Shown: positions 101 through 42,330 of the stretch, in pieces
Position numbering within the stretch: position 1 is the first letter of the stretch
Layout: each line of letters starts with the position of its first letter
Assembly: GCA_021739645.1 (NCBI GenBank)
Contig: JAIPBL010000053.1
Coordinates: forward strand, 1 to 44,843
DNA from: Saprospiraceae bacterium
GTDB taxonomy: Bacteria; Bacteroidota; Bacteroidia; Chitinophagales; Saprospiraceae
Reading direction: 5' to 3'
DNA length: 44,843 nt
Notes under the pieces: generated by a model
What the model saw: the letters and a program-made list of their open reading frames with translations, nothing else
What the model was told of the DNA's origin: nothing
The model's database searches: none
Program-made: the position numbers and the translations under genes

Positions 101-3100
101 ATGCAATCCAAACTCACCCACCTCCAACAATCCCTCGAAGGCGAGCTGCACTTCGATTCACTCATGCGGTCGCTCTATGCCACCGATGCTTCCGTTTACA
201 AGGAACTGCCGCTCGCCGTCGCCTATCCACGCACCAGGGAGGACGTAAAAAAGCTCATTGCCTTCGCAACCAAGAACGGAACCAGCCTCATTCCTCGCAC
301 GGCGGGCACCTCCCTCGGCGGGCAATGCGTCGGCACGGGCATCGTCGTGGATGTGTCAAAACACTGGAACAAAATCCTCGAAATCAATGTGGAAGAACGC
401 TGGGTGCGGGTGCAGCCGGGCGTGATTCGGGACGAGCTGAATGTGTTTTTGACAAAGCATGGCCTGTTCTTCGGCCCCGTGACTGCCACGGCCAGTCGGG
501 CGATGATAGGCGGCATGGTCGGCAACAATTCTTGCGGAGCGACCAGTATCGTGCACGGCACCACCCGTGACCATGTGCTGGAAATCGAGGCCATCCTCAG
601 CGATGGGGCAGAGCATGTATTTAAAAGCCTTACCGAAAAGCAGTTCATGGATAGAATAGCAGCCCCTAACTCCCCCCCATGGGGGGGGCTGGGGGGGGCA
701 TTGTATCGCCAGCTTTTCGAAACCCTCCAACTCCCTGAAAATCAAGCGAACATCCGCCGGGAATACCCCAAAGCCAGCATCCACCGCCGCAACACCGGCT
801 ACGCCGTGGACGTGCTGCTCGACCACAAACCCTTCTCGCCCGATGGCCCCGATTTCAATTTTTGCAAACTGCTCACCGGCAGCGAGGGCACGCTGGCTTT
901 CACAACAGCCATAAAGTTAAATGTCGTGCCGCTCCCGCCGCCTGTGCCTGTGGTGTTGTGTGCTCATTTCACCAGTTTGGATGAAAGCATGGAGGCGACA
1001 CTCGTGGCCATGCAGCACCGCCCCGACCAGTGCGAATTGGTGGACAAATTCACCCTCGACTGCACCAAGGACAACCTTGAACAATCGAAAAACCGCTTCT
1101 TCGTGCAGGGCGACCCAGCGGCTGTGCTGATGATTGAATTTCGGAGAACCAACTTGCCGGAAGCCGAAGCTGTTGCGCAAAACCTCATTGAAAACTTCAT
1201 AGCGGCGGGCATGGGCTACGCCTTCCCCGTTGTGACGGGCAAGCATACATCACAAGTTTGGGCGCTCCGCAATGCGGGCCTCGGCGTCATGTCGAACATC
1301 CCCGGCGATGCCAAGCCGTACTCTTTCGTGGAGGACACTGCTGTGGCACTGGCCGACTTGCCCGCCTATATCCGGGAGTTCGAGGCGATGATGGCTGGGT
1401 TTGGGCAGCAGGCGGTTTACTATGCCCATGCCGGGGCGGGAGAGCTGCACACCAAGCCTGTTTTGAACCTTAAAAATGCTGACGACGTGCGGCAGTTTCG
1501 AGAGATAGCTGAGGCTTCAGCCAAGCTGGTGAAAAAGTACAACGGCAGCCTCTCCGGCGAACACGGCGACGGGCGGGTGCGGGCAGAGTTCATCCCGATG
1601 ATGCTCGGCGATGCCAATTACCAACTGTTGCGGAGCATCAAAAAAACCTGGGACCCGCACGGCATTTTCAATCCCGGCAAAATCACGGATGCCCCGCCGA
1701 TGGACGTTTCGCTGCGATACGAGGTTGGTGCAAAACCGCCCGAAATCGAGACGGTGATGGACTTCTCGGATGCTGGCGGCTTCTTGCACATGGCCGAGAA
1801 GTGCAACGGCTCCGGCGATTGCCGCCGACTCGACCTGAGCGGCGGGACGATGTGCCCCAGTTACCGGGCGACGAGGGACGAGAAGGATACGACGAGGGCG
1901 AGGGCGAATGCGCTGCGGGAGTACCTTTCAGTTGGCAGTTCGACAGTTGGCAGTTGGCAGTCGAGTTTGCAGTCAAATAGTCCGCAATCCGCAATCCACA
2001 ATCCGCAACCCGCAATCGGAGAGGAGGAAGTGGAACGGGTGCTCGACCTATGCCTCTCTTGCAAGGGCTGCACCTCCGAGTGCCCCTCTAACGTGGACAT
2101 GGCGACGATGAAGGCGGAGTTCACACATCAGTATTATCAGCAACATGGGGTGCCCTTTCGGGCGAAATTCTTTGGACATATCGGTCGAATGAATGCGGTG
2201 TTGTCGCACTTTCCAAGATTAGCCAATTTCTTCACCAATAACCCCATCACTGGGAGTTTGCTGAAAAAAATCGTGGGCGTTGCGCAGCAAAGAAGCCTGC
2301 CGCCGCTGGCGAAAACCACCTTGCGGAACTGGTACAAGAAGCAACGTCACGAGTTGCAACCGAATGGGGTGGGGAAGGGCAAGGTCTTTTTTTTCTGCGA
2401 CGAGTTCACCGATTATTACGATGCCGAAATTGGGATAAAAGCACTGGAACTGCTCACTCGGCTCGGCTACGAAGTGGAGATGCCGGAACATCCGCAGAGC
2501 GGTCGGGCGCAGCTCTCAAAAGGGCTTTTGCCGGAGGCGCAAAAACTGGCGAGGGAGAACGTGCGCATCTTTTCGAAGCTGGTTTCTTCGGAAACCCCGC
2601 TCGTCGGCATCGAGCCATCGGCCATCCTCGGTTTTCGGGATGAGTACCCCCGGCTGGTGGAGCGGGCGGACGTTGCGCAAGCGAAAAAACTGGGTAAGAA
2701 TGCGTTGCTGATTGATGAGTTCTTGGCGAAAGAGATTCAGGCTGGGCGCATCTCCGCCGATTTGTTTACCAAAGGAAAAAGAAAAGTGCTGCTTCACGGC
2801 CATTGCCACCAAAAGGCGCTGTCGAGTGTGGACGCTTCGGCGTGGGTCTGCGGCTTGCCGGAGAACTACACGGTGGAGGTCATTCCGTCCGGCTGCTGCG
2901 GTATGGCGGGGTCGTTCGGGTATGAAAAGGAGCATTACGAAGTGAGCATGAAGATTGGGGAGTTGGTGCTGTTTCCGGCGATACGTAACACGGACTGCCA
3001 GTCCGTGGCGCAGGGACTTCCCACCAACGAGGGTCTGCATGTTGGGGAGCGGGAAAGCACGGACGGGCCGTCCGTGTTACTGGCAGCGCCGGGCACGAGT

Positions 3101-3181
3101 TGCCGCCATCAGATTTTGGATGGGACGGGGCGGAAGGCGCTTCATCCGGTGGAGGTGCTGTGGGAAGCGCTGGCGCTATAG
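101..3181 (+). CDS. FAD-binding and Fe-S cluster dehydrogenase (YdiJ / D-2-hydroxyacid dehydrogenase type)
   Basis: A 1026-residue fused flavo-iron-sulfur oxidoreductase of the GlcD/YdiJ type, which oxidises D-2-hydroxyacids such as D-lactate or D-2-hydroxyglutarate and passes electrons on through Fe-S clusters. The N-terminal half is an FAD_binding_4 domain (PRTAGTSLGGQ near residue 65) followed by the FAD-oxidase C-terminal domain with SGEHGDGR. Next come ferredoxin-type cysteines in CNGSGDCRR...CPSY and CLSCKGCTSECPSNVDM, then a CCG-type C-terminus with HGHCHQKA and GCCGMAGSFGYEKEHYE. I chose the ATG at 101 (MQSKLTHLQQ); an upstream in-frame ATG at 71 would add ten unlikely residues. Length is near the usual 970-1020 only because three repeat-derived segments are inserted in frame (657-700, 1929-2018, 2985-3080). 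The exact substrate cannot be read from sequence. It ends two bases before the convergent ORF6N gene. Confidence 0.9.
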   Translation: MQSKLTHLQQSLEGELHFDSLMRSLYATDASVYKELPLAVAYPRTREDVKKLIAFATKNGTSLIPRTAGTSLGGQCVGTGIVVDVSKHWNKILEINVEERWVRVQPGVIRDELNVFLTKHGLFFGPVTATASRAMIGGMVGNNSCGATSIVHGTTRDHVLEIEAILSDGAEHVFKSLTEKQFMDRIAAPNSPPWGGLGGALYRQLFETLQLPENQANIRREYPKASIHRRNTGYAVDVLLDHKPFSPDGPDFNFCKLLTGSEGTLAFTTAIKLNVVPLPPPVPVVLCAHFTSLDESMEATLVAMQHRPDQCELVDKFTLDCTKDNLEQSKNRFFVQGDPAAVLMIEFRRTNLPEAEAVAQNLIENFIAAGMGYAFPVVTGKHTSQVWALRNAGLGVMSNIPGDAKPYSFVEDTAVALADLPAYIREFEAMMAGFGQQAVYYAHAGAGELHTKPVLNLKNADDVRQFREIAEASAKLVKKYNGSLSGEHGDGRVRAEFIPMMLGDANYQLLRSIKKTWDPHGIFNPGKITDAPPMDVSLRYEVGAKPPEIETVMDFSDAGGFLHMAEKCNGSGDCRRLDLSGGTMCPSYRATRDEKDTTRARANALREYLSVGSSTVGSWQSSLQSNSPQSAIHNPQPAIGEEEVERVLDLCLSCKGCTSECPSNVDMATMKAEFTHQYYQQHGVPFRAKFFGHIGRMNAVLSHFPRLANFFTNNPITGSLLKKIVGVAQQRSLPPLAKTTLRNWYKKQRHELQPNGVGKGKVFFFCDEFTDYYDAEIGIKALELLTRLGYEVEMPEHPQSGRAQLSKGLLPEAQKLARENVRIFSKLVSSETPLVGIEPSAILGFRDEYPRLVERADVAQAKKLGKNALLIDEFLAKEIQAGRISADLFTKGKRKVLLHGHCHQKALSSVDASAWVCGLPENYTVEVIPSGCCGMAGSFGYEKEHYEVSMKIGELVLFPAIRNTDCQSVAQGLPTNEGLHVGERESTDGPSVLLAAPGTSCRHQILDGTGRKALHPVEVLWEALAL
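657..700. repeat. In-frame G/C-run palindrome inside the FAD/Fe-S gene
   Basis: The stretch contains C7, AT, G8, CT, G8, so 672-687 is a near-perfect palindrome. It encodes the peptide AAPNSPPWGGLGGA between KQFMDRI and the conserved LYRQLFETL region, where homologues as I recall them have a short loop. The two G8 tracts in a reading frame are candidates for replication slippage. Confidence 0.6.
1929..2018. repeat. In-frame period-7 repeat block inside the FAD/Fe-S gene
   Basis: Two adjacent period-7 arrays: CAGTTGG-type units at 1929-1974, then CCGCAAT-type units at 1982-2015. They encode a Ser/Gln/Asn/Pro-rich linker of about 30 residues between the first Fe-S cysteine group and the EEEVERVLDLCLSCKGC motif. 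The same CAGTTGG unit occurs at 21219-21252 and 26469-26489, outside coding sequence or at a gene end. Confidence 0.75.
2985..3080. repeat. In-frame paired-palindrome element (BIME-like) inside the FAD/Fe-S gene
   Basis: Left arm 2985-3007 (GTAACACGGACTGCC...) and right arm 3058-3080 are inverted copies of 23 bases with two mismatches, and each arm is itself palindromic around ACTGCCAGT. The element is 96 bases, exactly 32 codons, and yields NTDCQSVAQGLP...STDGPSVLL between GELVLFPAIR and AAPGTSCRHQI, two conserved segments near the C-terminus. A second copy lies between moaD and moaE at 39603-39692. Confidence 0.8.
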
Positions 3182-3183
3182 AC

Positions 3184-5027: not shown

Positions 5028-6953
5028 ATGCTTTCCACCAAAAAAATCACCCTGTTTTTCCTCGCCCTGCTTGTGGCATGGTGCTTTTCTTTTTGCAAAA
5101 AAACAAGCGCCACTTCCGCCGATTTCCCTTTCCGAAACGTCCGGGACAGCGTCGCCTACGTGGGCATGGCCACCTGCGCCAGTTGCCACAAAGACATCCA
5201 CGAGACTTTCCAGCACACGGGCATGGGGCGCTCCTTCGACCATGCGACCCTGCAAAAAACCACTGCCAAATTTGGCTCCCACGCCGTCGTTTTTGATTCG
5301 CTCCGCAATTTTTACTACCACCCGTTTTTCAAGGACTCCACCATGTTCGTCCTCGAATACCGCCTCGGGGAAAACGGCGACACCATCCACCGCCGCCTCG
5401 AAAAAATCAGCTACATCGTCGGCTCCGGGCAGCATACCAACTCGCATATTCTCGACATCAACGGCTATATTTATCAGGCGCCCGTCACCTGGTACACGCA
5501 GGAGGAGCGATGGGATTTGGCGCCCGGTTTCAAGGGCAACAACAGCCACTTCGGGCGCTGGCTGACGGAGGAGTGCATCACCTGCCACAACAACTTGCCA
5601 GAACAAGTGCCCGGCTCCATGAACCGCTTCTCGAAAATGCCCACGGGCATCCAGTGCGAACGCTGCCACGGCCCCGGCAAACTGCACGTGGAGGAAAAGT
5701 TGAAGGGCATTTTGGTAGATACTTCCAAGCAGGCCGACTATTCCATCGTGAACCCCCGCCGCCTGCCCCGTGACCTCCAGATGGACCTCTGCCAGCGTTG
5801 CCACCTGCAAGGCGTGGCCGTGCTGAACGAGGGCAAAACCTTCTTCGACTTCAAGCCGGGGATGCGACTGAGCGAGGTACTGAACGTCTATCTGCCCCGC
5901 TACACCGACTCGCACGAGCGCTTCATCATGGCCTCGCAGGCCGACCGGCTGCGCATGAGCGAGTGCTTCAAAAACTCGCCCGACCTCAGTTGCATCACCT
6001 GCCACCAGCCGCACCGCAGTGTGGAAATCACCCCTGCCAGCCAGTACAACAATGCTTGTTTGAAATGTCACGCCTCCACAGCTTGCACGGAGAAGCCGGA
6101 GCTAAGGCACTCAAAATCAGACAATTGCGCAAGCTGCCACATGCCCAAGTCCGTCAGTAAGGACATCCCGCACGTGCGCATCACCGACCACCGCATTGCG
6201 AAGCACAACGAGGCAAAAACGGTGGCCGCTCCGCAAAAAAAGGCGTTCCTCGGCATCCAGAACATGACCCAAGCCCGGCCCTCTCCGCTTGACATGGCAC
6301 GGGGCTACCTCGCCACCCACGACAAGTACATCGCCTCGCCCGTGATGCTGGACAGTGCGGCGTTCTATCTTGCGAAATCAACCGAAAAAGCGGAGCGGCT
6401 GCTGCCGGTGAGGATTCATTTGCTGTTCCTAAAAGAAGACTGGAAGGGCATTCTGGCATCAATCCCCAATTCCTCAATTCCCAAATTCCCAAATTCCCAA
6501 CTCCCAACCGACGGCTGGACGCCCTACCGCATCGGCGAAGCATACTCCAATACAGGCGATGCGGAAACAGCCCTGCGCTACTTCGACCTGGCTTTGCAGA
6601 CCTACCCGCTTCACCTCGATTTTTTGGAAAAAAAAGGCGCTGCCCTGCTGGCCCTGAAGCGAATTGCGGAAGCGAAAAAGGTGTTTGAAAATGTGTTGAA
6701 ACTGAACCCCGACCGCCCCATCGCCCTGCTCAACCTCGGCTACGCCAACGTGCTGACGAACAACCTGCCCCAAGCCGAAAAGCTCTACAACGAAGCCCTC
6801 GCCCTCGACCCCGACTACGAACAGGCGCTGGTGAACAAGGCGGCGCTGCTGATTTTTCAAGGAAAAAAGGCGGAGGCGAAGCGGTTGTTGGAAAGGGCGC
6901 TGGTGGTAAATCCGGAGAGTGTGGGGGCTAGGGAGGGGTTGGGGCGGTTGTGA
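5028..6953 (+). CDS. Multihaem c-type cytochrome with C-terminal TPR repeats
   Basis: A 641-residue exported protein. The N-terminus (KKITLFFLALLVAWCFSFCKK) is a signal peptide, with a possible lipidated Cys at 23. Seven CxxCH haem-binding motifs lie at about residues 50, 183, 210, 255, 322, 344 and 367. From about 400 on the protein is helical, with TPR units (FDLALQTYPLHLDFLEKKGAALLALKRIAEAKKVFENVLKLNPDRP...) to the C-terminus. Proteins with this layout are predicted periplasmic or outer-surface electron-transfer or oxidoreductase components. No catalytic signature identifies a specific reductase. A linker at 6461-6508 (IPNSSIPKFPNSQLP) derives from a simple repeat. The start at 5028 sits five bases after a TAAATTTG box, so the mRNA may be nearly leaderless. 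It stands alone, divergent from the preceding gene. Confidence 0.9.
   Translation: MLSTKKITLFFLALLVAWCFSFCKKTSATSADFPFRNVRDSVAYVGMATCASCHKDIHETFQHTGMGRSFDHATLQKTTAKFGSHAVVFDSLRNFYYHPFFKDSTMFVLEYRLGENGDTIHRRLEKISYIVGSGQHTNSHILDINGYIYQAPVTWYTQEERWDLAPGFKGNNSHFGRWLTEECITCHNNLPEQVPGSMNRFSKMPTGIQCERCHGPGKLHVEEKLKGILVDTSKQADYSIVNPRRLPRDLQMDLCQRCHLQGVAVLNEGKTFFDFKPGMRLSEVLNVYLPRYTDSHERFIMASQADRLRMSECFKNSPDLSCITCHQPHRSVEITPASQYNNACLKCHASTACTEKPELRHSKSDNCASCHMPKSVSKDIPHVRITDHRIAKHNEAKTVAAPQKKAFLGIQNMTQARPSPLDMARGYLATHDKYIASPVMLDSAAFYLAKSTEKAERLLPVRIHLLFLKEDWKGILASIPNSSIPKFPNSQLPTDGWTPYRIGEAYSNTGDAETALRYFDLALQTYPLHLDFLEKKGAALLALKRIAEAKKVFENVLKLNPDRPIALLNLGYANVLTNNLPQAEKLYNEALALDPDYEQALVNKAALLIFQGKKAEAKRLLERALVVNPESVGAREGLGRL
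6461..6508. repeat. Simple repeat (TTCCCAAA units) inside the multihaem cytochrome gene
   Basis: Imperfect units of CAATTCCC/AAATTCCC, period mostly 8, encoding a Pro/Ser/Asn linker between the haem domain and the TPR domain. It resembles the other in-frame simple-repeat linkers of this window in position and composition. Confidence 0.6.
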
Positions 6954-16742: not shown

Positions 16743-16753
16743 CGGACATTTTC

Positions 16754-16840
16754 GGTTTCTGGTTTCAAGTTTCTGGTTTCAGGGAGTGCCTGCTAATTTC
16801 CTAGTTCCTCCCTGAAACCAAAAACTAAAAACCTGAAACC
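16754..16840. repeat. Inverted pair of period-7 repeats in the leader of the membrane-protein gene
   Basis: Left arm 16754-16785 is built of GGTTTCT/GGTTTCA units, right arm 16809-16840 of GAAACCA/AAAACCT units, and together they form a hairpin of about 32 base pairs with a 23-base loop. Downstream of the promoter at 16714-16742 it would be transcribed as a strong leader stem, 22 bases before the start codon. Confidence 0.7.
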
Positions 16841-20130: not shown

Positions 20131-20166
20131 TCTCCAATCACGAGTCACCAATCACCAATCACCAAA
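20131..20166. repeat. Period-7 repeat (CCAATCA units) before the SDR gene
   Basis: Units of CACCAAT/CCAATCA run up to the base before the ATG at 20167. A reading frame from 20113 continues through it (SPITSHQSPITK), so the repeat could be translated if the upstream ATG were used, but the conserved protein starts after it. The repeat replaces any Shine-Dalgarno region. Confidence 0.65.
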
Positions 20167-20879: not shown

Positions 20880-21230
20880 ATGAGTAATAGCAAGACTTCC
20901 CAAATCAGAATCACCGTCCACCTCGACGAAAAGAACGTACCAACCAGCATTAATTGGGACGCTGACGACCGTACCGACGGCGATAAACCTGTTGAATGCA
21001 AAGGTATGTTGCTTTCGCTTTTTGAGCGGGAAACAATGGATACCATGAAGATTGACCTCTGGGCCAGCGACATGCAGGTGAACGAAATGGACCGTTTTTT
21101 CTTCCAAACGCTTCGGGGTATGGCGGACACCTATTTTAAGGCCACCCAAAACCGGGAACTGGCGGTGGACATGCAGAAGTTCGTGCAGTATTTTGGGGAA
21201 AAAACGGCAATATTGAAAGTTGGCAGTTAG
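20880..21230 (+). CDS. gldC: Gliding motility protein GldC
   Basis: A 116-residue cytosolic protein matching GldC, a conserved Bacteroidota protein associated with gliding motility: IRITVHLDEKNVPTSINWDADD, then MLLSLFERETMDTMKIDLWASDMQVNEMDRFFFQTLRGMADTYFKAT and MQKFVQYFGEKTAILK. Its exact biochemical role is unsettled; GldC homologues also occur in non-gliding members of the phylum. It is the last gene of the plus-strand run and follows the SDR gene by 14 bases. The final three codons (VGS) and the TAG stop are contributed by the CAGTTGG repeat that starts at 21219, so the native C-terminus may have been altered. Confidence 0.9.
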   Translation: MSNSKTSQIRITVHLDEKNVPTSINWDADDRTDGDKPVECKGMLLSLFERETMDTMKIDLWASDMQVNEMDRFFFQTLRGMADTYFKATQNRELAVDMQKFVQYFGEKTAILKVGS

Positions 21231-21252
21231 ACAGTTGGCAGTTTGCAGTCAG
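21219..21252. repeat. CAGTTGG period-7 repeat at the gldC 3' end
   Basis: GTTGGCAGTTAGACAGTTGG and continuing units. The gldC stop TAG lies inside it. It belongs to the same family as 1929-1974 and 26469-26489. Confidence 0.7.
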
Positions 21253-21271: not shown

Positions 21272-22891
21272 TTAATTTTTCCAATCCACGTGGGGGATTG
21301 CTTCGAGCAACTCCCGGGTGTAATCTGACTTAGGGTTTGAAAACACTTCGTCCGTTGGCCCGATTTCCACGATTTTACCATCCTTCATTACGGCGATTCT
21401 GTCGCTGATTAGCCGCACAACGCTCAGGTCGTGGGAGATGAAAATGTAGGTTAGCCGATGCTTTTTTTGCAGAACTTGCAGTAAATCAAGCACTTGCGCT
21501 TGTACGGTGACGTCCAGGGAGGAAATGGCTTCATCGCAAATGATGATTTTCGGCTGCAATGCCAGTGCCCGTGCGATGCAGATGCGCTGCCGCTGTCCAC
21601 CAGAAAATTCACTGGGGAAGCGCCAAAAATGACTGGCTTCCAGGCCTACTGTTTCCAGCAGTTCCACTGCCTTTTCCCGCCGCTGTTTTTCGTTTGAAAA
21701 AAGGCCATGAACCTGCATCGGTTCGGTGATGGCCGTGCCGATGGGTTGCCGTGGGTTAAGCGAGGAGTAGGGATCCTGGAAAATCACCTGAATGTCTTTT
21801 CGGGTGCTAAACCACTCATTTTCAGTTTGTTGTAAAATGTTTTTGCTCGAAAAAATCACCTCGCCGGAACTTGGATTTATCAGCTTCAAGATGCTCCTGC
21901 CCAGCGTCGTTTTGCCACTTCCCGACTCGCCCACCAGCCCAAGCGTTTCCCCATCAAATACTTCAAAACTGACATTGTCCACGGCCTTGACGTGCTCGAT
22001 TGGTTTGCCAAAAAAGTTGCGCCTGGAAGGAAACCAAGTTCTGAGCTTGGAAATGGAGAGAATCGGCAAATGGTTGACGGTTGACGGTTGACGGTGGGCA
22101 GTGGACAAGGAGGTTCTTTTTTTGAAATTTTCAAGTAAGAGCTGGGTGTAGGGATGCTTTGGGTTTTGAAAAATTTGGGCGACCGAACCATGCTCAACTA
22201 TCTCCCCTTTTTGCATAACCAGCACATTATCAGCCACTTCTGCCACCACGCCGAGGTCGTGGGAAATGAAAATGGTGGAGCCGCCCCACTCGTTTTTCAA
22301 CTCGTTGAAAAGGTCGAGGATAGAGCGTTGTACCGTCACGTCGAGGGCGCTGGTAGGTTCATCGGCGATGAGCAGTGAGGGGTTGCAGGATAGCGTCATC
22401 GCAATCATGACCCGCTGCCGCTGGCCACCGCTGAGCTGGTGCGGGTAGCTGCGCCAAATGCGTTCGGGGTCGGGCAGTTTTACTTTTTCAAAAAGCTGAA
22501 GGGTTTGTTGCTTCGCAATGCCCTTGGTTGTTTTTTGATGGAGCAAAATGGCCTCCGCCACTTGGTCGCCACAGCGGAAAACGGGGTTGAGGGAGGTCAT
22601 CGGCTCTTGGAAAATCATGGCGATTTCACTTCCAATAACGCTGGCTGGGTTTAAAATCCTGCCATCTTTTCCCTCGAATAAAATCTCGCCCGCCTCCAAA
22701 TTTGCCGCAGCGGGCAAAAGCCCCATGATGGCCAGTGCCGTCATGGATTTGCCAGAGCCGCTCTCACCAACGATACCAAGCGTTTCGCCTTTTTTCAACG
22801 AAAAAGAAATACCCCGAAGGGCATCCACTTTGCCGATTTCCGAAGGGAAACTGACCCGTAAATTGTTGATGGTGAGGAGGTTGTCAAGCAT
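21272..22891 (-). CDS. ABC transporter double ATPase (oligopeptide/dipeptide type)
   Basis: A 539-residue protein with two complete ABC ATPase domains, as in GsiA/YejF and DppD-DppF fusions that drive uptake of peptides, glutathione or nickel. Domain 1 has Walker A GESGSGKS, signature LSGGQRQR and Walker B LLIADEPTS; domain 2 has GESGSGKT, FSGGQRQR and IIICDEAIS. Each domain ends with a His switch (ISHDLG, ISHDLS). The inter-domain linker (RTSLSTAHRQPSTVNHLPIL) includes a GTTGACG repeat at 22071-22103. No permease or binding-protein genes are adjacent, so the partners must be elsewhere. The ATG at 22891 is preceded in frame by a TTG at 22900 that overlaps the stop of the upstream small gene. 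Confidence 0.92.
   Translation of the reverse strand: MLDNLLTINNLRVSFPSEIGKVDALRGISFSLKKGETLGIVGESGSGKSMTALAIMGLLPAAANLEAGEILFEGKDGRILNPASVIGSEIAMIFQEPMTSLNPVFRCGDQVAEAILLHQKTTKGIAKQQTLQLFEKVKLPDPERIWRSYPHQLSGGQRQRVMIAMTLSCNPSLLIADEPTSALDVTVQRSILDLFNELKNEWGGSTIFISHDLGVVAEVADNVLVMQKGEIVEHGSVAQIFQNPKHPYTQLLLENFKKRTSLSTAHRQPSTVNHLPILSISKLRTWFPSRRNFFGKPIEHVKAVDNVSFEVFDGETLGLVGESGSGKTTLGRSILKLINPSSGEVIFSSKNILQQTENEWFSTRKDIQVIFQDPYSSLNPRQPIGTAITEPMQVHGLFSNEKQRREKAVELLETVGLEASHFWRFPSEFSGGQRQRICIARALALQPKIIICDEAISSLDVTVQAQVLDLLQVLQKKHRLTYIFISHDLSVVRLISDRIAVMKDGKIVEIGPTDEVFSNPKSDYTRELLEAIPHVDWKN
22071..22103. repeat. Period-7 repeat (GGTTGAC units) inside the ABC ATPase gene
   Basis: Three GGTTGAC units plus degenerate ones, encoding part of the hydrophilic linker between the two ATPase domains. 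Three 7-base units equal 21 bases, so such arrays can expand in steps of three units without breaking the frame. Confidence 0.7.
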
Positions 22892-22896
22892 TTGGT

Positions 22897-23199
22897 TCAA
22901 GCAAAAAGTGGATTCAGTGCAGTTTCCAATGCGTTTGGAGTGATCGGCTTTTCCAGTGCTTTTGGATAAAACCGTTGCATCAATTTTTCAATATAAAATG
23001 CTGGCGGCATCTCTGAAGTGGGGTAAACTGAAAGCATCAAAGTGACCAACTCGTCAAAAAATTTCCGCTTACGGGCTTCGTATTGCTTGGCCATCAGCTT
23101 ATCAGCTGCCCTTTGGTGCATGGCAATGAGTTTGTCGAGTTCATTGATTTCCGTCAATAACGCTTTGATTTTCAATAAGTTAGCTGTTTCTGGTTTCAT
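22897..23199 (-). CDS. Small coiled-coil protein of unknown function
   Basis: A 100-residue protein beginning MKPETANLLKIKALLTEINELDKLIAMHQRAADKLMAKQYEARKRKFFDELVTLML. This is a charged helix likely to form a coiled coil, followed by SVYPTSEMPPAFYIEKLMQRFYPKALEK. I do not recognise a family. I took the ATG at 23199, since a longer frame to 23406 merely reads antisense to the Gfo/Idh/MocA gene. The stop overlaps a possible TTG start of the ABC ATPase gene, so the two are coupled and probably co-expressed. Confidence 0.7.
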   Translation of the reverse strand: MKPETANLLKIKALLTEINELDKLIAMHQRAADKLMAKQYEARKRKFFDELVTLMLSVYPTSEMPPAFYIEKLMQRFYPKALEKPITPNALETALNPLFA

Positions 23200-25275: not shown

Positions 25276-25388
25276 AAAAGCCCTTCCAACCCAACGTTCA
25301 TGGTGGCACAATAAGCTTCGCAAACAGGATTTGGCTATTGGGTCGTCAGCAATTTCTCATGTAAGAATGCACTCATTTAAGTCGCTTT

Positions 25389-25464
25389 TGGCATGGCCGA
25401 AGACCACCTGCGACGTCAAAAAAGGCCGCTGGCGAAACGTCGCAGTTGGTCTTCGACCATGCCA
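25389..25464. repeat. Strong 28-bp hairpin between convergent genes
   Basis: Arms 25389-25416 (TGGCATGGCCGAAGACCACC...) and 25437-25464 pair over 28 bases with two mismatches, around a 20-base loop. It lies between a secreted-protein stop (25275) and the convergent glycosyltransferase stop (25526) and could end transcription from both sides, though no T-run follows. It may also be a mobile repeat like the others. Confidence 0.7.
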
Positions 25465-25525
25465 AGAAAACGAAAGTGTTTTACATAAGAAACTGCTGTT
25501 GGGACACTGACTTTTGGGTTAAAAA

Positions 25526-26461
25526 TCAGTGCACGGTTTCCTCAATCACGTACTGGTTACGGGTGGATGAATTACGTACCAACAGCTCCGCCAAGAATCC
25601 AGTCACGAAGAGTTGGGTACCCACGATGAGCGTCAGGATTCCAAAATAAAACAAGGGCCGGTCGGCGATGCCATATTCTTGGTTGAACAGTTTTTCGATA
25701 CTCAACCAAAGTAGTATTCCCAAGCCGCTTAGAAAAAACAGCACCCCCCAAGTGCCAAAAAAGTGCATCGGGCGCTTGCCGAACTTACCGATGAAGGTGA
25801 TGCTGAGGAGGTCGAGGAAACCGTTCACGAAGCGGTCGAGGCCAAACTTCGAGACCCCAAACTGGCGGGCACGGTGCTCCACCACTTTTTCGCCAATTTT
25901 CCCAAAGCCCGACCATTTGGCCAGTAGCGGCGTGTAGCGGTGCATTTCACCATAAATTTCGATGCTTTTCACCACGTCGAGGCGGTAGGCTTTCAAGCCG
26001 CAGTTGAAATCGTGGAGCGGGATGTGGCTTATCCAGCGGGTGACCCCGTTGAAAAACTTGCTGGGGATGGTCTTCATGATGGGGTCGTACCGCTTCTTTT
26101 TCCAACCAGAAACTAGGTCAAAACCGTCATCAACAATCATGCTGCGGAGACCGGGGATTTCGTCGGGGCTGTCCTGCAAGTCGGCATCCATCGTTATAAC
26201 GACATCGCCCTGTGCTGCCTCAAAACCCACGAAAAGCGCAGCAGACTTGCCGTAATTGCGCCGGAATTTGATGCCACGCATATTTGGATTTTTCTTCGCC
26301 AAATCTTCAATCACTTGCCAAGAACGGTCTTTTGAACCGTCGTCCACCATGATGATTTCGTAGGTAAAACGGTTGGCTTCCATCACACGGCGAATCCAAG
26401 CCTCCAATGCTGGCAGGCTTTCGTCTTCGTTGAAAAGTGGTACAACTATGCTTAAGTCCAT
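25526..26461 (-). CDS. Glycosyltransferase family 2 with two C-terminal TM helices (DPM1/GtrB-like)
   Basis: A 311-residue membrane glycosyltransferase. The GT-A domain starts LSIVVPLFNEDESLPALEAWI, has the donor/metal motif TMDADLQDSPDE and VDDGSKD. Two TM helices near the C-terminus (WGVLFFLSGLGILLWLSI and YFGILTLIVGTQLFVTGFLAELLV) match polyprenyl-phosphate sugar transferases such as GtrB or dolichol-phosphate mannose synthase. The likely reaction is sugar transfer from a nucleotide sugar to polyprenyl phosphate. It is downstream of the two DUF4199 genes, separated by the element at 26469-26735. Confidence 0.9.
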   Translation of the reverse strand: MDLSIVVPLFNEDESLPALEAWIRRVMEANRFTYEIIMVDDGSKDRSWQVIEDLAKKNPNMRGIKFRRNYGKSAALFVGFEAAQGDVVITMDADLQDSPDEIPGLRSMIVDDGFDLVSGWKKKRYDPIMKTIPSKFFNGVTRWISHIPLHDFNCGLKAYRLDVVKSIEIYGEMHRYTPLLAKWSGFGKIGEKVVEHRARQFGVSKFGLDRFVNGFLDLLSITFIGKFGKRPMHFFGTWGVLFFLSGLGILLWLSIEKLFNQEYGIADRPLFYFGILTLIVGTQLFVTGFLAELLVRNSSTRNQYVIEETVH

Positions 26462-26468
26462 TAGTTCG

Positions 26469-26735
26469 ACAGTTGGCAGTTGGCAGTCAGAAGAGTCTAG
26501 GCAACAGTTCTTGATGCGGATAACGGGTTCAACTAGTGTAAAAAATGCCGTTAGGCACGAAATGTTGGTAGTAGAAATGTTGAACCGACGATTTGCGTGC
26601 CGTAGGTACGTTACTTTTCGTGGGCTTGTGGCGTACCTACGGCACGCTAATCTGACATTTCAACCCATTTCTACCGACATTTTGTGCCTAAAGGCACATT
26701 TCAACCCGTTATTCGCATTCTTGACTGCCAACTGC
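26469..26735. repeat. Large nested inverted-repeat element between glycosyltransferase and DUF4199 genes
   Basis: A nested palindrome of about 265 bases with no gene. Outer arms carry CAGTTGGCAGTCA (left about 26477-26489, right near 26724-26735) and ATGCGGATAACGGGTTC/ACCCGTTATTCGCAT. Middle arms are TGCCGTTAGGCACGAAATGT (26546-) against ACATTTTGTGCCTAAAGGCA (26677-26696). Inner arms are GCGTGCCGTAGGTACG (26595-26610) against CGTACCTACGGCACGC (26632-26647), perfect over 16 bases. It fills the intergenic gap and so interrupts the likely operon. Confidence 0.75.
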
Positions 26736-30270: not shown

Positions 30271-30636
30271 ATGCCCAGCTTTGAAATTGAGGGGAAGCTC
30301 CTCCGCAAATACGACACCGAGAACAAATCACAATCCTTTCAGGCCCGTGAATTCGTGCTGGAAATCCCCGATGGCAATTATCCGCAGTACATCAAATTCC
30401 AACTGACCCAAGATCGCTGCGGCGCCATTGACGCCCACGGTGAGGGCGAGCAAATCAAAGTACATTTTGACCTGCGAGGCCGGGAATGGCAGGGAAAGTA
30501 TTTTACCAACCTCAATGCCTGGCGCATCGAGAAGGCCGCCGCCGCCGAAGCTGCTCCACCGCCGCCGAATGCCGATTACGACTTCCCTACCGCCAGCGAT
30601 GAGCCAGCGGTTTTGAACGAGGATTTACCGTTTTAA
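30271..30636 (+). CDS. DUF3127 protein with SSB-like C-terminal tip
   Basis: A 121-residue protein. Residues 1-87 are the DUF3127 domain (FEIEGKLLRKYDTENKSQSFQAREFVLEI...YIKFQLTQDRCGAIDAHGEGEQIKVHFDLRGREWQGKYFTNLNAWRIEK), a beta-rich fold that looks like an OB fold. A low-complexity Ala/Pro linker (EAAPPPPNADYDFP) leads to an acidic C-terminus ending NEDLPF. That ending closely resembles the DDDIPF tip of single-stranded DNA-binding protein, which recruits replication and repair proteins. DUF3127 itself has no assigned function. It is probably monocistronic, between a terminator and a convergent gene. Confidence 0.85.
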   Translation: MPSFEIEGKLLRKYDTENKSQSFQAREFVLEIPDGNYPQYIKFQLTQDRCGAIDAHGEGEQIKVHFDLRGREWQGKYFTNLNAWRIEKAAAAEAAPPPPNADYDFPTASDEPAVLNEDLPF

Positions 30637-30638
30637 CA

Positions 30639-30693
30639 TTTACGATTTACGACTGACGATTTACGATTTCTCGTAACTCGCCAGTCGTAAATC
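30639..30693. repeat. ACGATTT period-7 repeat and hairpin between convergent genes
   Basis: Units of ACGATTT occupy the gap exactly between the DUF3127 stop (30636) and the GH2 stop (30696). 30644-30659 (GATTTACGACTGACGA) pairs with 30678-30693 with one mismatch, so it can act as a two-way terminator-like hairpin. The same unit occurs at 33686-33720 and 42156-42330. Confidence 0.7.
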
Positions 30694-30695
30694 CA

Positions 30696-33134
30696 CTAAT
30701 GCCCTAGCTTCGCTTCCACCTTCTTCCCAAACTCATCTTCGAGCCAAAACTCCAGTCCTACGCCACCTTTTTTCTGAAAAAACTCCACCCGTAGTGGGTG
30801 TTTTCCAGCTTTCAGTGCCACACTGGCAGGCTTGTCTTTCATGCCATGAATGCCGTCGTTGTCGATCAAAAGTTGCCCGTCGAGGAAGAGCCGAGAACCA
30901 TCATCGGTAGGCATGTGAAGGGTGTAAACGCCAGTAATCGGTGCTTCCATCCAGCCCTCCAACAGTAACCCAAAGTCTTCCTTGGCTTCTACCTGCTTCA
31001 AGCCTATTTCATTGAAAACCAGCTCTTTAGCTGGGGCCAATTTTGAAAAATCGGGCAGTTTGTCCCAACTTCCTTCGTAAAATTTTACCGCCAATCCAGC
31101 TTTTTTGCCTGTTTTCCCTTTTGGCTTCATGGCCTTGGTCTTGGTGAAAACATACCGCTGCTCGTGGCTTTTCAGGCTATCAGGCCAGGCAGCTCGGGTG
31201 ACGATGGAAGTCGTGTTTTTTATGGCAATTGGAGCGGTGAAACGCTGCCATTTCAATGGCGCCTTATCTGTTTCAATAGCATACTCAATGACGGCATTTG
31301 GCTTTACGGTCTCAAAGGAGACGTTGGTGTTTTTGATAAAAATATTGACGTTGGTGGTCGGCTTCGGCGGCATTTGTCCACGATGTGCAAGCCTTAGCAT
31401 TTCCGGATCCATTTTCAGCACTTTGCGGTCATAGGTCATCAGGCCATTGCTTTCGGTTTCCACATCGCTGACTTGAGTATAAACAGCAGCGGCCAACCCC
31501 TCAGAATCCACCAACGGAAGCAGCTCCCGATACAATTCCTCGTACCGCACTAGCAGCGCCTCCGGCGTCTCGATTTGCTGGTAGCCCCAGCCTTTGTCAG
31601 CCCATTGGTGGCCAGGAATGTTGAGGCCAAGGCCGCCAAACTCGCCCAACACAGCAGCGCGGCCATCCACTACTTTCGGCGAAGAAGGGCCTGGGTAATC
31701 GTGGATGTCGAGGACATCGCCAACTCCGGCATCAGTCCAGCCGCTGGCGTTGTTGACAAGACGGGTCGGGTCCCATTCCCGCAATCTCTCCACATAAAAA
31801 GCTGTCTCGTGCTGTCCCCAACCCTCGTTGAACGGCACCCACATCACGATGCTTGGATGGTTGAAAAGGTTGTCCACCATCGCCTTCATTTCCCATTTGA
31901 ACTGCGTTCGGTCTTCCTCGTTTCTGGGATTTGCGTTCGGCATGTCCTGCCAGACGAGGATGCCCAACTGGTCGCAGAGGTAGTACCAACGCGCTGGCTC
32001 CACCTTCACGTGTTTTCGTATCATGTTGAAACCCAATGATTTAAGTGTTTCAATATCGTATTTCATGGCCTCTTCGTTGGGTGCGGTGTAGAGGCCATCT
32101 GGCCAAAATCCCTGGTCGAGGGGGCCAAGTTGGAAGATAGGCTTGTTGTTGAGCATCAAGCGGGTAACGCCATTTTCGTCGGGGCCTACACTGGTTTTGC
32201 GCAGCCCAAAATAACCCCTCACCATGTCCACATCTTTGCCGTTGCTGCCTTCAATCGTGATTTCAAGGTCGTAGAGGAAGGGGTCTTCGAGGGTCCAGAG
32301 ATGGCCATCTTTTACGAAAATCAAGAGCGGCGCACCTGCCTTGCCACTGGCAGTGGACACCGGGCGGCCATTTTGGAGGACACTGGCGGTCACTTTTTGC
32401 CCAGCCAAATAGCCCTCAGTTTCTACCCGAACCACTGCACGATTCTTGTCTGCATCTGGCTCCACCCGATAGGAGCGGATATAAGAGGTTGGCACTGGCT
32501 CCATCCAAACCGTTTGCCAAATGCCGCTTGTCGGCGTGTAGTAAATGCCGCCCGGCGTCAGGGTCTGCTTTCCCACGGCTTGCCCGCCAGCGTTGGTCGG
32601 GTCAATGGTGTGGACAGAGATGACGGCCTCTTCCCCAAGTTTTACGGCATCGGTGATGTCAAAGAAAAAAGGGTCGTAGCCCCCTTTGTGGTCTCCCACT
32701 TTTTTACCGTTCACAAAAACGGAAGCCTGCCAGTCCACCGCTCCGAAATGTAGCAGCACCCGCTTTCCGTTCCAGCGGCTCGGCATGAAGAATTTTCGGG
32801 TATAAATCATCACATGGGTTGGCTCTACCCGCCAGCCGCAGCCCGAAAGCGCCGACTCGACAGGGTATGGCACCAAAATTTGCCCCTGCTTTTCGGTTAC
32901 CCCAGTTTTATCATCCAACAAACTCAGGTTCCAAAGCCCGTTCAAGTTGACCCAGTCAGGGCGGGTCATGGTGGGGCGTGGGTAATTGGGAAATGGGTTT
33001 TCTGGGTTCACCTTTTCCGTCCAGGGCGTGGTCAGACCACCTTGTACGGGTTGCCATTTTTGCTGCGCAATGGATGTAATTTGTTGAAAGACAAAGATTA
33101 AGGTGAAGAGAAAAGGTAGGTTGCGAAGTTTCAT
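30696..33134 (-). CDS. Glycoside hydrolase family 2 enzyme with C-terminal PA14 domain
   Basis: An 812-residue exported enzyme (signal peptide MKLRNLPFLFTLIFVFQQITSIAQQ). The GH2 sugar-binding domain (RPDWVNLNGLWNLSLLD...GCGWRVEPTHVMIYTRKF) and the immunoglobulin-like domain precede the barrel (GFNMIRKHVKVEPARWYYLCDQLGILVWQDMPN). The acid/base Glu is in VPFNEGWGQ (about residue 433) and the nucleophile Glu in VLGEFGG (about 495). The last 130 residues form a PA14-type carbohydrate-binding domain (VKFYEGSWDKLPDF...GVYTLHMPTDDGSRLFLDGQLLIDND). Family members hydrolyse beta-galactosides, beta-glucuronides or beta-mannosides; specificity is not readable here. It is divergent from the GT39/83-type gene. 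Confidence 0.92.
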   Translation of the reverse strand: MKLRNLPFLFTLIFVFQQITSIAQQKWQPVQGGLTTPWTEKVNPENPFPNYPRPTMTRPDWVNLNGLWNLSLLDDKTGVTEKQGQILVPYPVESALSGCGWRVEPTHVMIYTRKFFMPSRWNGKRVLLHFGAVDWQASVFVNGKKVGDHKGGYDPFFFDITDAVKLGEEAVISVHTIDPTNAGGQAVGKQTLTPGGIYYTPTSGIWQTVWMEPVPTSYIRSYRVEPDADKNRAVVRVETEGYLAGQKVTASVLQNGRPVSTASGKAGAPLLIFVKDGHLWTLEDPFLYDLEITIEGSNGKDVDMVRGYFGLRKTSVGPDENGVTRLMLNNKPIFQLGPLDQGFWPDGLYTAPNEEAMKYDIETLKSLGFNMIRKHVKVEPARWYYLCDQLGILVWQDMPNANPRNEEDRTQFKWEMKAMVDNLFNHPSIVMWVPFNEGWGQHETAFYVERLREWDPTRLVNNASGWTDAGVGDVLDIHDYPGPSSPKVVDGRAAVLGEFGGLGLNIPGHQWADKGWGYQQIETPEALLVRYEELYRELLPLVDSEGLAAAVYTQVSDVETESNGLMTYDRKVLKMDPEMLRLAHRGQMPPKPTTNVNIFIKNTNVSFETVKPNAVIEYAIETDKAPLKWQRFTAPIAIKNTTSIVTRAAWPDSLKSHEQRYVFTKTKAMKPKGKTGKKAGLAVKFYEGSWDKLPDFSKLAPAKELVFNEIGLKQVEAKEDFGLLLEGWMEAPITGVYTLHMPTDDGSRLFLDGQLLIDNDGIHGMKDKPASVALKAGKHPLRVEFFQKKGGVGLEFWLEDEFGKKVEAKLGH

Positions 33135-33311: not shown

Positions 33312-34757
33312 TTGACCTGTTTGAATCGTTTCACAAAATACCTCACCGACGCCCGCTGGCTCATCCTGGCTTTCTTCCTCATGCGGCTTTACGGCATCAC
33401 CAACCCGCCGCTGGAGGTCAACCACAATTGGCGTCAAGTCACCACAAACATGTACGCCCGGAACTTTCTGGAGGTGGACAACAACCCGCTGTACAGCCGG
33501 GTGGACATGGCTGGCGACCTCACAGGCATCACCGCCAAGGAGTTCCCGCTGTTCAATTACCTGATTTACCTCGCCGCCGATGCGTTCGGCTGGCAACACT
33601 GGTACGGGCGGCTCATTAGCCTCGTGGTGTCCAGTTTCGGCATTTGGTTTTTCTATTTGTTGGTAAAAAAATACCTCGACGCCCCCCAATCGTCAATCGT
33701 AAATCGTCCATCAAAAATCGCCTACCCTGCCACCGTTATTCTGCTCAGTTCCATTTGGTTTGGGCACAGCCGCATCATCATGCCGGACACGTTCAGTGTG
33801 TCGCTGGTGCTGATGGGGCTGTGGTTCGGACTGGAATGGCTGTACCGTGGCGGAGGTTGGCGGCTCGTGCTTTTTGGGTTGCTCGGAACTTTGGGGGCGT
33901 TGAGCAAACTGCCTTCGGGGTTTCTGTTGGCGGCGCTGGCCTTTCCGTTTTTTGACCAAACCGTTTTGCCGAAAAGAAAAATTGGATTGGCGGCAGTGGG
34001 CATCATACTGCTTGCCTGCTGTGGTTGGTGGTACTTCCAATGGTTACCGCAGGTGATACAAACCTATGGTTTCGAGCAATACCCGATGCGAATGGTGCGT
34101 GTGGGGATGCAGGAAATTCTGCATGGTTTGCCAAAGGTTTTCGAGCGGTTTTACCGCAGCGCACTGAAAAGTTACGTTGGCTTCGGGCTTTACCTGGTTG
34201 GTCTTGGGTGGGCAGTCTGGCGAAAAGAATGGCGGCTGTTAGGGCTGTTCGGGCTGCTGTCGGTGGTGTTTATTGGGTACATTTTCAAGTCGGGGGCCAG
34301 TTTTTACCACCACAATTACTACATTATTCCCTTCGTGCCAGTGATGGCCGTGATGGTGGGCTTTTCGCTTGCGCAAATACGGAAGCCGTGGTTGTGCAAC
34401 CTGCTGCTGCTGGCCGTGGTGGTGGAGGGTGTCGCCAACCAACAGGATGCGTTCCGAGTGAAAAATAGCGAACTTCCCAAACTGCAACTCGAATCCATCG
34501 CCGATTCGCTCAGCCAACGCAACGACCTCGTGGCGTTTTACTCACCAGATACCAACCCGCAAGAAATGTACTTCGCCCACCGAAAGGGCTGGTTGGTCGA
34601 TGCTACGGAAATTGGCGATTCCAGCCACCTCGCCGACATTGCGAAGCTAGGCTGCAAACTGTTTTTTGCCGACAAAAAACAACTGGATAAAGCGCAGTGG
34701 CCAATTCTGAAAATCGCTTTCGAAGATGAAAACTATGTTGTTTTCAAAATGGAATAA
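33312..34757 (+). CDS. Polytopic glycosyltransferase of the GT39/GT83 (PMT/ArnT) type
   Basis: A 481-residue membrane protein with about ten TM helices. The N-terminal DARWLILAFFLMRLYGITNPPLEVNHNWRQVTTNMYARNF resembles the first loop of ArnT/PMT-type enzymes, which use polyprenyl-phosphate sugars outside the inner membrane; the usual acidic pair in that loop is not obvious (E-VNHN). AKEFPLFNYLIYLAADAFG and the C-terminal soluble tail also fit. The start is a TTG at 33312, because the first ATG (33381) lies inside TM helix 1. A repeat-derived segment (APQSSIVNRPSK, 33686-33720) lies in a cytosolic loop. It may use the product of a GT2 enzyme like that at 25526. Confidence 0.8.
   Translation: MTCLNRFTKYLTDARWLILAFFLMRLYGITNPPLEVNHNWRQVTTNMYARNFLEVDNNPLYSRVDMAGDLTGITAKEFPLFNYLIYLAADAFGWQHWYGRLISLVVSSFGIWFFYLLVKKYLDAPQSSIVNRPSKIAYPATVILLSSIWFGHSRIIMPDTFSVSLVLMGLWFGLEWLYRGGGWRLVLFGLLGTLGALSKLPSGFLLAALAFPFFDQTVLPKRKIGLAAVGIILLACCGWWYFQWLPQVIQTYGFEQYPMRMVRVGMQEILHGLPKVFERFYRSALKSYVGFGLYLVGLGWAVWRKEWRLLGLFGLLSVVFIGYIFKSGASFYHHNYYIIPFVPVMAVMVGFSLAQIRKPWLCNLLLLAVVVEGVANQQDAFRVKNSELPKLQLESIADSLSQRNDLVAFYSPDTNPQEMYFAHRKGWLVDATEIGDSSHLADIAKLGCKLFFADKKQLDKAQWPILKIAFEDENYVVFKME
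33686..33720. repeat. ATCGTNAA period-7 repeat inside the GT39/83-type gene
   Basis: CAATCGT/CAATCGT/AAATCGT/CCATCAA/AAATCG units in frame, encoding SSIVNRPSK in a loop after a TM helix. It is the reverse-complement sense of the ACGATTT unit at 30639-30693 and 42156-42191. Confidence 0.7.
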
Positions 34758-39606: not shown

Positions 39607-39692
39607 CACGGACTGCCAGTCCGTGACCAGGCTCCAACACCAAGCAACTGCTTTTTTAAAACAGAAAAGCACGGACTGGCAGTCCGTGTTAC
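39603..39692. repeat. Paired-palindrome element (BIME-like) between moaD and moaE
   Basis: Arms 39603-39625 and 39670-39692 are perfect 23-base inverted copies (GTAACACGGACTGCC...), each internally palindromic, separated by 44 bases. It supplies the moaD stop codon and ends eight bases before the moaE ATG. The arms match those of the in-frame copy at 2985-3080, while the centres are unrelated. Confidence 0.85.
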
Positions 39693-39700
39693 ATTGAACC

Positions 39701-40117
39701 ATGCTAGAAATCAAACTGACCGAGACACTGCTGGATGTAAATGCCTGCATCAACTTCGTTTCATCGGACGATGCAGGCGGCATTGATGTTTTTATCGGAA
39801 CGGTCCGCAACGCCACCAAAGGCAAACCCGTGCTCCGCCTCGAATTTGAAGCCTACGAACCCATGGCCATCGCCGAGATGCAAAAAATTGCGGAGCAGGC
39901 AAAAGCAAAATTTGGGGCAAAAAAAATAGCACTGCACCACCGTTCCGGCATCCTCCAAATTGGCGAAGCTGCTGTCGTTATCGCCGTGAGTGCCCCACAT
40001 CGAGCGGCTGCTTTTGACGCCTGCCGTTATTGCATTGACACTTTGAAGGAAACCGTCCCCATTTGGAAAAAAGAAATTTTTGAAGACGGTGAAGTTTGGG
40101 TGGCAGCACATCCATAA
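39701..40117 (+). CDS. moaE: MoaE, molybdopterin synthase catalytic subunit
   Basis: A 138-residue protein matching MoaE, which inserts sulfur from MoaD into precursor Z to make molybdopterin. Visible family motifs: GGIDVFIGTVRNATKGKPVLRLEFEAYEPMA near the start, ALHHRSGILQIGEAAVVIAVSAPHRAAAF in the middle, and VPIWKKEIFEDGEVWV with the catalytic Lys at the end. It forms a pair with moaD upstream, interrupted only by the palindromic element. Confidence 0.93.
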   Translation: MLEIKLTETLLDVNACINFVSSDDAGGIDVFIGTVRNATKGKPVLRLEFEAYEPMAIAEMQKIAEQAKAKFGAKKIALHHRSGILQIGEAAVVIAVSAPHRAAAFDACRYCIDTLKETVPIWKKEIFEDGEVWVAAHP

Positions 40118-40120
40118 AAA

Positions 40121-40156
40121 ATTATGAGTTGCGAGTTTTGAGTTTTGAGTTGGTGG
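40121..40156. repeat. GAGTTTT period-7 repeat between convergent genes
   Basis: Three GAGTTTT-type units fill the gap between the moaE stop (40117) and the acetyltransferase stop (40166). Confidence 0.55.
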
Positions 40157-40165
40157 AAGCCGAGT

Positions 40166-42126: not shown

Positions 42127-42155
42127 TCGATTCTATTTTGGCGAAAGATAACTCG

Positions 42156-42330
42156 ATTTACGATTTACGATTTAGCAATTTACGATTGGGGAGCTGCTGA
42201 AACGTTTAGTTTTCGTTTTTTTCAAATACTTTGTGGCCGTAAAATCAGTCCTTGGTCAATAAGTTCATTCAATCACCTTTGCCAGATACGATAACCCCAA
42301 TCGTAAATAACTAAATCGTAAATCGTAAAT
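42156..42330. repeat. Inverted pair of ACGATTT repeats between divergent genes
   Basis: Left arm 42156-42191 and right arm 42295-42330 are inverted copies of 36 bases with only two mismatches, both built of ACGATTT units, about 103 bases apart. The left arm begins 29 bases from the MFS start, and the right arm includes the first two bases of the RimK ATG (42329). The whole control region of both genes lies inside or between the arms. Confidence 0.8.

Follow-up and report, generated by a model that had tools for sequence, protein, structure and literature searches.

Dispersed heptad and octad repeat arrays in a Saprospiraceae genome and the polarity of their G-rich strands

Arrays of seven-base units scattered over a genome are a kind of repeat already known from cyanobacteria, Xanthomonas and Beggiatoaceae. 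Here we describe such arrays, with units of seven and eight bases, in a 44,843-nucleotide stretch of DNA from a Saprospiraceae bacterium (contig JAIPBL010000053.1 of assembly GCA_021739645.1), which is called the window below, and in the rest of its genome, its relatives and viruses. For cyanobacteria, Mazel is said to have reported dispersed heptanucleotide tandem repeats, the STRR sequences, in 1990; by description, these and the long simple sequence repeats mentioned below resemble our arrays as dispersed heptanucleotide tandem repeats. The heptad motif in the P6b stem of the cyanobacterial trnL intron is TDNGATT. Degenerate heptanucleotide repeats are described for this stem (PMC3488679); they resemble our arrays in building the two pairing arms of a hairpin and in varying in length by copy number, and differ in lying inside an intron RNA. 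Among long simple sequence repeats, heptads are the most abundant (Mrazek, 2007, cited in PMC4679880).

Two systems come closest. In Xanthomonas and Nostoc PCC7120 the heptamers are GGGAATC and GGGGA(C/T)T, respectively; convergent inverted pairs number 70 in Xcc and 75 in Xac, and in both Xanthomonas and Nostoc the G-rich strand is antisense in the 50 bp ahead of open reading frames (ORFs) and sense in the 50 bp that follow stops (Rehm et al., 2015, PMC4692102). The dispersed, mainly intergenic location, the inverted pairs and the same orientation at starts and stops were all found here. Units of the GGGNATC/GGGGAYT type were not: none of the 39 consensus units in our sample has four consecutive Gs, GGG runs are rare and the units are not quadruplex-like. 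Unlike those repeats, ours comprise many unit families per genome, octads, pairs of unrelated arms and a change of unit at orthologous sites. The TAACTGA heptamers of Beggiatoaceae, cyanobacteria and a few Bacteroidetes, proposed as a translational signal, lie before starts, with one set reversed 3' of a stop in Flexibacter litoralis, and are missing at the same gene pair in some relatives (MacGregor, 2015, PMC4679880). They thus share with our arrays the position next to start codons, the reversal after a stop and the patchy presence in relatives; they are a single fixed unit, and none of the 39 consensus units of our 1.245-Mb sample is TAACTGA.

A 2025 survey of short tandem repeats found no general enrichment in bacteria and placed Bacteroidota among the high-density phyla; the word heptanucleotide does not occur in its main text (PMC12699852). 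Our literature search covered titles and the beginnings of abstracts, with few subscription journals, and among the matches listed no paper was found on Saprospiraceae heptads, on the polarity of unmatched pairs or on unit change at orthologous sites.

Excess, period and units of the arrays

The genome (G000) comprises 6.16 Mb in 147 contigs, of which the window is C50. As an unbiased sample we took the window and 60 stretches of 20 kb, picked regardless of repeats (1,244,843 bases, about one fifth of the genome). Arrays were called in this sample at 16 of 21 matches at a given lag, and five first-order Markov resamplings served as controls. A second set of stretches was picked by motif, the last four because inverted pairs had been seen in them; both sets overlap on contigs C1, C2, C80 and C120 and are therefore reported separately. 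Genes were called with an ORF scoring made for this analysis, and some start positions are wrong (the RimK-like gene of the window was called from 42422, while a Pfam match and the ORF indicate 42329).

An earlier note on the window had named arrays at nine places, and Tandem Repeats Finder recovered all nine as period 7 (33688-33720 as period 14). Lag-7 runs of at least 9 exact matches occur eight times in the window, compared with a mean of 0.23 in 30 dinucleotide shuffles; seven window regions pass 21 of 28 lag-7 matches and none did in the ten shuffles checked. The unbiased sample contains 90 lag-7 arrays, the five resamplings 3, 0, 2, 2 and 2, so that the excess over shuffled sequence which the note had expected is borne out by array counts. 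Bulk autocorrelation of the window did not show this: its plain value at lag 7 is unremarkable (z 0.8) and codon lags dominate. With a flat bulk signal and high array counts, the excess sits in local arrays. These are mostly non-coding, since in 445 kb, 87% of which was called coding, 25 of 31 arrays are intergenic.

The period is not constant at seven, as had been thought, but seven and eight, because lag 8 is enriched too, with 56 arrays. At a stricter setting 41 lag-7 and 28 lag-8 arrays were left. The remaining lags between 4 and 30 (multiples of 3 or 7 excluded) gave 1 to 7 arrays each, with 4 to 6 at lags 5, 10, 11 and 13, save for lag 16, which is twice 8 and gave 33. The likeness to cyanobacterial heptanucleotide repeats drawn in the note therefore holds in kind (seven bases, dispersed, mostly intergenic, inverted pairs, orientation to genes) and not in constancy of period.

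The units differ, though less freely than first stated. Among the 39 distinct consensus units of the 90 lag-7 arrays, ATTGCGG, ATTGGTG and ACGATTT are commonest, and 60 of the 90 arrays share a core [GA][GA]TT (RRTT) on the G/T-richer strand. In these 60 phased arrays mismatches to the own consensus amount to 152 of 1188 in RRTT columns and 216 of 891 in the more variable KNN columns; the other 30 arrays could not be phased on the core and were left out of this comparison. The fifth base of the unit is G or T in 403 of the 434 units of phage elements described below. Both observations would suit arrays of putative binding sites, in which the RRTTK core would be recognised once per heptad by a protein or RNA and the other positions would be free. 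We consider such a reader improbable, since a third of the arrays lack the core, octads have the same polarity (17 of 17), and AATG cores without RRTT are polar as well (25 versus 5), for which reason RRTT was also rejected as a general rule. Moreover, the contrast between RRTT and KNN columns is much weaker in virus-collection loci outside the pattern hits, and phasing by a motif may itself favour it. In G031, a genome of the same family, the reversed motif NNKTTRR in four copies is far commoner than RRTTKNN in four copies (209+254 versus 3+5 places); G031 is another genome with its own unit set.

Polarity of inverted pairs and orientation to genes

Inverted pairs of complementary arms were found 44 times in the unbiased sample, and in 42 of them G outnumbers C in the left arm. 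This is the case in 25 of 27 heptad pairs and all 17 octad pairs; the two others are GATTTAC elements of the window, a unit with equal G and C. Low-complexity arrays were left out of the count of these 44 pairs, of the counts of adjacent arrays by complementarity and of the orientation counts, and arrays with equal G and C out of the orientation counts. Generic intergenic hairpins free of arrays (n=98) have the G-rich arm first in 54 cases, the C-rich arm in 33 and equal arms in 11. For one core we counted the whole of G000: GATT..GATT precedes AATC..AATC at 66 places and follows it at none. The 14 genomes of the genus contain 510 GATT-first and 24 reverse places (overlapping registers counted), with no GATT-first place in G002 and G004. 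GATT-first places occurred in 88 and AATC-first places in 71 of 395 genomes drawn from the phylum, and all 12 genomes with at least ten GATT-first places have fewer of the reverse (66:0, 25:4, 15:0, 15:2, 14:0, 14:2, 14:2, 13:0, 12:0, 11:2, 11:6 and 10:1). As far as our literature search shows, the rule that the G-richer arm comes first in inverted pairs is new.

Opposite-strand neighbours without clear complementarity are also G-first in G000, in 11 of 11 cases (four in the unbiased sample, six and one intermediate case in the motif-picked set). Same-strand neighbours were left out of this count (4 in the unbiased sample, 1 in the motif-picked set, 1 in a congener and 88 in phage loci). This rejects, or at least weakens, base pairing as the cause of the polarity. 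The same goes for selection against terminator-like hairpins, since in convergent gaps 9 of 10 pairs have the G-rich arm first. Thus, the polarity requires neither hairpin formation nor start codons, and its presence in pairs without clear complementarity, weaker in phage loci, is likewise new within the reach of our search. Intrinsic terminators resemble the paired elements as hairpins in gene gaps; their GC-rich stem and T run were not found on reading the 44 listed pairs (a formal scan for terminators was not run), which have AT-rich heptad or octad arms with the G-richer one first and, as a consequence of this polarity, lack a terminal T run. Generic hairpins of this genome lean to A-rich 5' arms (60 versus 25 of 98).

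The same polarity was seen in viruses. With three units per arm, the IMG/VR collection contains 63 GATT-first and no reverse stretches, 52 and none for AGTT and 25 and 5 for AATG, altogether 140 G-first against 5 reverse stretches, some of which share one contig. GATT-first pairs at other spacings were found 11 times at spacing 8 and once at spacing 6. In phage loci selected through paired patterns, five stretches among them through a C-first pattern, complementary pairs are G-first in 153 and C-first in 16 cases, and intermediate pairs in 23 and 0. Ten proteins from eight IMG/VR loci were scanned: six match families of phage portal, terminase, capsid or head-protease proteins, with E 3e-8 for one terminase; one gave a weak tape-measure match and three gave no match to a named phage family. 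Several contigs, including L275, L276, L310 and L317, are tailed-phage contigs of 42-67% GC with AT-rich GATT heptad pairs, which sit near structural genes, several on each contig.

Paired elements lie in codirectional gaps (27), convergent gaps (10), divergent gaps (5) and inside called genes (2). Their median distances to the flanking genes are 7 and 6.5 bases, with a tail of distant cases; that they mostly fill the gene gap is new as far as searches show. For orientation, each array was finally counted once, by G minus C, relative to the nearest gene. The G-rich strand then points away from this gene at 27 versus 9 codirectional stops, 31 versus 5 codirectional starts and 20 versus 3 convergent stops. 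The motif-picked set gave 25 versus 8 codirectional stops, 24 versus 4 codirectional starts, 10 versus 1 convergent stops and 5 versus 0 divergent starts. Unpaired arrays alone are outward at 21 versus 4 stops and 18 versus 2 starts. Single arrays thus mostly obey one rule, their G-rich strand running outward from the nearest gene on the stop side and on the start side alike, and that the rule covers most of them has, to the extent of our search, not been described. The rule emerges with this change of scoring: an early count, which used G+T content, entered an array twice where a short gap gave it two neighbours and did not separate pairs from singles, was almost unbiased in 445 kb (stops 11 G-type versus 12, starts 8 C-type versus 5) and gave 29 versus 24 stops and 23 versus 14 starts in the motif-picked set. 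Within genes the sense strand is C-rich in 26 and G-rich in 3 unpaired arrays (12 and 10 in the motif-picked set).

These positions could also reflect selected signals in untranslated regions. C/A-rich heptads before starts would keep the initiation region open, G-rich heptads and hairpins after stops would protect or separate mRNAs, and the polarity would amount to two separately selected rules. In line with this, the elements adjoin start and stop codons, each of five complementary elements gave a strong RNA fold (z -6.3 to -9.7), and C exceeds G before starts in general (332 versus 78 of 436). After stops the background is balanced (169 versus 157 of 360), yet the arrays at convergent stops are outward; for this reason start-codon context was rejected as the sole cause. 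The polarity is also kept in the pairs without clear complementarity, arrays occur in frame within genes, and several orthologous gaps carry no array. Selected signals are therefore an unlikely account of the arrays as a whole, although a functional role of hairpins or leader regions is possible for part of them.

Arrays of the window and their sites in relatives

The first arrays, AGTTGGC-type at 1929-1961 followed by CGCAATC-type at 1981-2017, form an unmatched pair (1929-2018, plus strand) in frame in an FAD/4Fe-4S oxidase gene that starts at 71 or 101 and ends at 3181. The pair is non-complementary by eye, its first array is under the cut-off and it thus stands outside the 11 cases above; 199 of 200 shuffles give a better fold than the RNA of 1925-2022 itself (z +2.1). 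A plus-strand array of period 7/8 with the C-rich strand (CAATTCC CAAATTCC) is found at 6459-6512, in frame at the cytochrome/TPR junction of gene 5028-6953. The element at 16750-16840, between a gene end at 16717 and a gene start at 16863, pairs a GGTTTCT arm with a GAAACC arm (RNA fold z -9.05). CCAATCA is repeated on the minus strand at 20131-20166, immediately 5' of an ATG near 20167, and degenerate AGTTGGC on the plus strand at 21218-21252, at the 3' end of gene 20880-21230. A plus-strand GGTTGAC array at 22064-22108 separates the two ABC domains of a double ABC ATPase gene (21272-22900, minus strand). At 26466-26493, AGTTGGC units on the plus strand adjoin the start of minus-strand gene 25526-26461, where congeners have other units. 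A paired GATTTAC element (30622-30693; RNA fold z -6.31) lies between convergent genes 30271-30636 and 30696-33134, an AATCGTA-type array on the minus strand (33684-33720) in frame in the PMT_2 gene 33321-34757, and a plus-strand GAGTTTT array (40120-40156) between two convergent genes whose ends are at 40117 and 40166. Finally, a plus-strand GATTTAC arm (42154-42187) lies upstream of an Atg22/MFS-like gene on the minus strand, which starts at 42126; its match is a minus-strand AATCGTA arm (42299-42330) that extends into the ATG of the RimK-like gene at 42329. The idea that 42154-42330 is an invertible promoter was rejected, since by eye the inner part has the same orientation in congeners G003 and G013.

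Several details of the earlier description change accordingly. The single array given for 42156-42330 is in fact two inverted arrays separated by 111 bases, those given as plain arrays at 16754-16840 and 30639-30693 each contain an inverted second arm, and the arrays at 6459-6512 and 26466-26493 (CAGTTGG) had been overlooked, as had arm pairing, polarity and the change of unit at fixed sites among congeners. The statement that some arrays lie in frame in domain linkers fits 22071-22103 and 6459-6512; 33686-33720 lies inside a PMT_2 match, and the in-frame pair at 1929-2018 lies within a Fer4-matched stretch where relatives keep a fixed short linker.

Ten window sites were compared with congener segments (one genome per species; 65-91% identity among the matches listed for window pieces) and with UBA6168 and SJ47. 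These two Saprospiraceae metagenome genomes are the nearest named relatives by the FAD/Fe-S protein (82% and 79% identity in the best segment, among the best 80 of 587 matches). Sites 6463 and 33686 had no two-sided match. The unit differs at 20131 (CCAATCA, AATTGGG or GTCATTG), at 21218 (AGTTGGC or GAGGTAT), at 22071 (GGTTGAC or GGTGGAC) and in both arms at 42154 (GATTTAC or GATTTCG). The orthologous site lacks an array in G012 at 16750 and 20131, in G003 and G013 at 40121 and in G003 at 22071, and another hairpin takes its place in G008 at 22071 and in G013 and G005 at 30622. Of 35 congener array clusters 34 could be mapped, and 21 of these, several of which are one site in different genomes and thus not independent, lie no more than 130 bases from an array of the window, in a zone that makes up 7.5% of its length. 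Arrays occupy 6 of the 29 window gaps of at least 30 bases, or 17% of gap length. Arrays thus often persist at orthologous sites while the unit changes, an observation that is new as far as our literature search shows.

For the FAD/Fe-S gene, 16 of 80 loci were aligned. At a first spot 13 of 14 more distant Bacteroidota have 33 amino acids (one has 34), and G000, UBA6168 and SJ47 have 54, 48 and 59; at a second spot all 14 have 26, and the three genomes 50, 33 and 27. In SJ47 the first spot is taken by another, palindromic repeat. This repeat and a long near-perfect palindrome of G013 at the site of the 30622 element (L215:6385-6497), together with the dispersed, multicopy and intergenic nature of the elements, would agree with mobile palindromes of the REP/REPIN or MITE-like type, moving as units with heptads as their inner structure. 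This seems very unlikely to us: no constant tag, end or palindrome sequence was found across arrays and pairs (RAYT transposases were not searched for), the units are as diverse as described and some arms are unmatched.

Repeats of other kinds are present as well. At the site of the 30622 element, G005 (L218) has a terminator-like hairpin with A and T runs. The FAD/Fe-S gene also holds a C-run/G-run palindrome at 670-699 (TCCCCCCCATGGGGGGGGC) and, near its 3' end, an in-frame palindromic insert at 2985-3083 (TAACACGGACTG...CCGTGTTA); at the latter spot relatives have other, shorter inserts and 14 of 14 more distant Bacteroidota none, and copies related to this insert occur throughout the genus. 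About 200 bases at 26511-26719 belong to a dispersed repeat with many genomic matches at 77-97% identity on other G000 contigs, and about 150 bases at 25346-25499 have several further copies in G000 at 85-90% identity.

A possible origin of the arrays

Dispersed and degenerate, the heptad and octad arrays belong to the known heptameric-repeat kind. For their origin, the reading we tentatively favour is that they were born in repair or replication, grew in a strand-directed way and are tolerated where harmless. Repair or replication synthesis would slip in steps of seven to eight bases at G-rich 3' ends that meet a break or stall, either in a gene gap or at a place inside a gene that tolerates insertions. 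Growth on one side would give a single array with its G-rich strand outward from the gene, growth on two sides a pair with the G-rich arm first, and copying within the element would often render the arms complementary and thus able to form hairpins. Selection would chiefly purge arrays that damage genes and be nearly indifferent to the others. A G-rich strand pointing outward at both gene ends is expected if arrays grow at G-rich 3' ends from the border of conserved sequence. Loss of SbcD was rejected as a cause, since SbcD is above cut-off in 11 of the 14 genus genomes including G000.

A number of points weigh against slippage at G-rich 3' ends. No growth event was observed, nor was an enzyme for the growth step identified. 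Of the 60 genomes searched, 9 have Ku, but none of the 14 in the genus does, and classical end joining is therefore not the route. Plain slippage does not predict a conserved RRTT core. In the selected phage loci the rule is weaker for non-complementary pairs (26 G-first, 13 C-first), G007 has only 19 GATT-first versus 13 reverse places and G311 has 0 versus 7. Outward arrays at divergent starts (13 versus 7) are not significant, and avoidance of G before starts can by itself account for the start side, though not for the stop side with its unskewed background. Arms in G000 do share the NNN part more within an element (18 of 33 mirrored and 30 of 70 other positions) than between elements (0.131); mirrored positions are not clearly more alike than others, neither in G000 nor in phage elements (48 of 191 versus 119 of 461). 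Mirrored copying between arms, tested in this way, had no clear effect, and simple fold-back copying is thus not demonstrated.

A dedicated activity, comparable to that at eukaryotic telomeric repeats, might instead add G-rich heptads or octads to exposed 3' ends of bacterial and phage DNA before these are rejoined, and intergenic arrays would be the scars. The outward orientation at starts and stops and the head-to-head G-rich strands, including pairs of unrelated units, would be expected. The 39 consensus units in the sample of one genome are unlike the product of a single template, Ku is absent and no enzyme was identified (reverse transcriptases were not searched for), so that we regard healing of this type as quite improbable. 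If true, it would explain the G-rich strand running into the gap, the unrelated arrays standing head to head and the differing repeats at shared fragile sites.

The choice of seven bases and the recurrence of heptads in distant phyla are left unexplained in the cited parts of PMC4679880 and PMC4692102. Arrays lie at contig ends or within 100 bases of them on C39, C106, C126, C139, C140 and C145; together with the in-frame lengthening of proteins, this means that the arrays affect assembly and annotation. The range of mechanisms becomes smaller with a single orientation rule for most single arrays, for hairpins and for unmatched pairs in this genome and, with three cores, in a virus collection. 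Such a rule speaks against a function of hairpins, or the context of start codons, as sole cause and in favour of growth directed by strand.

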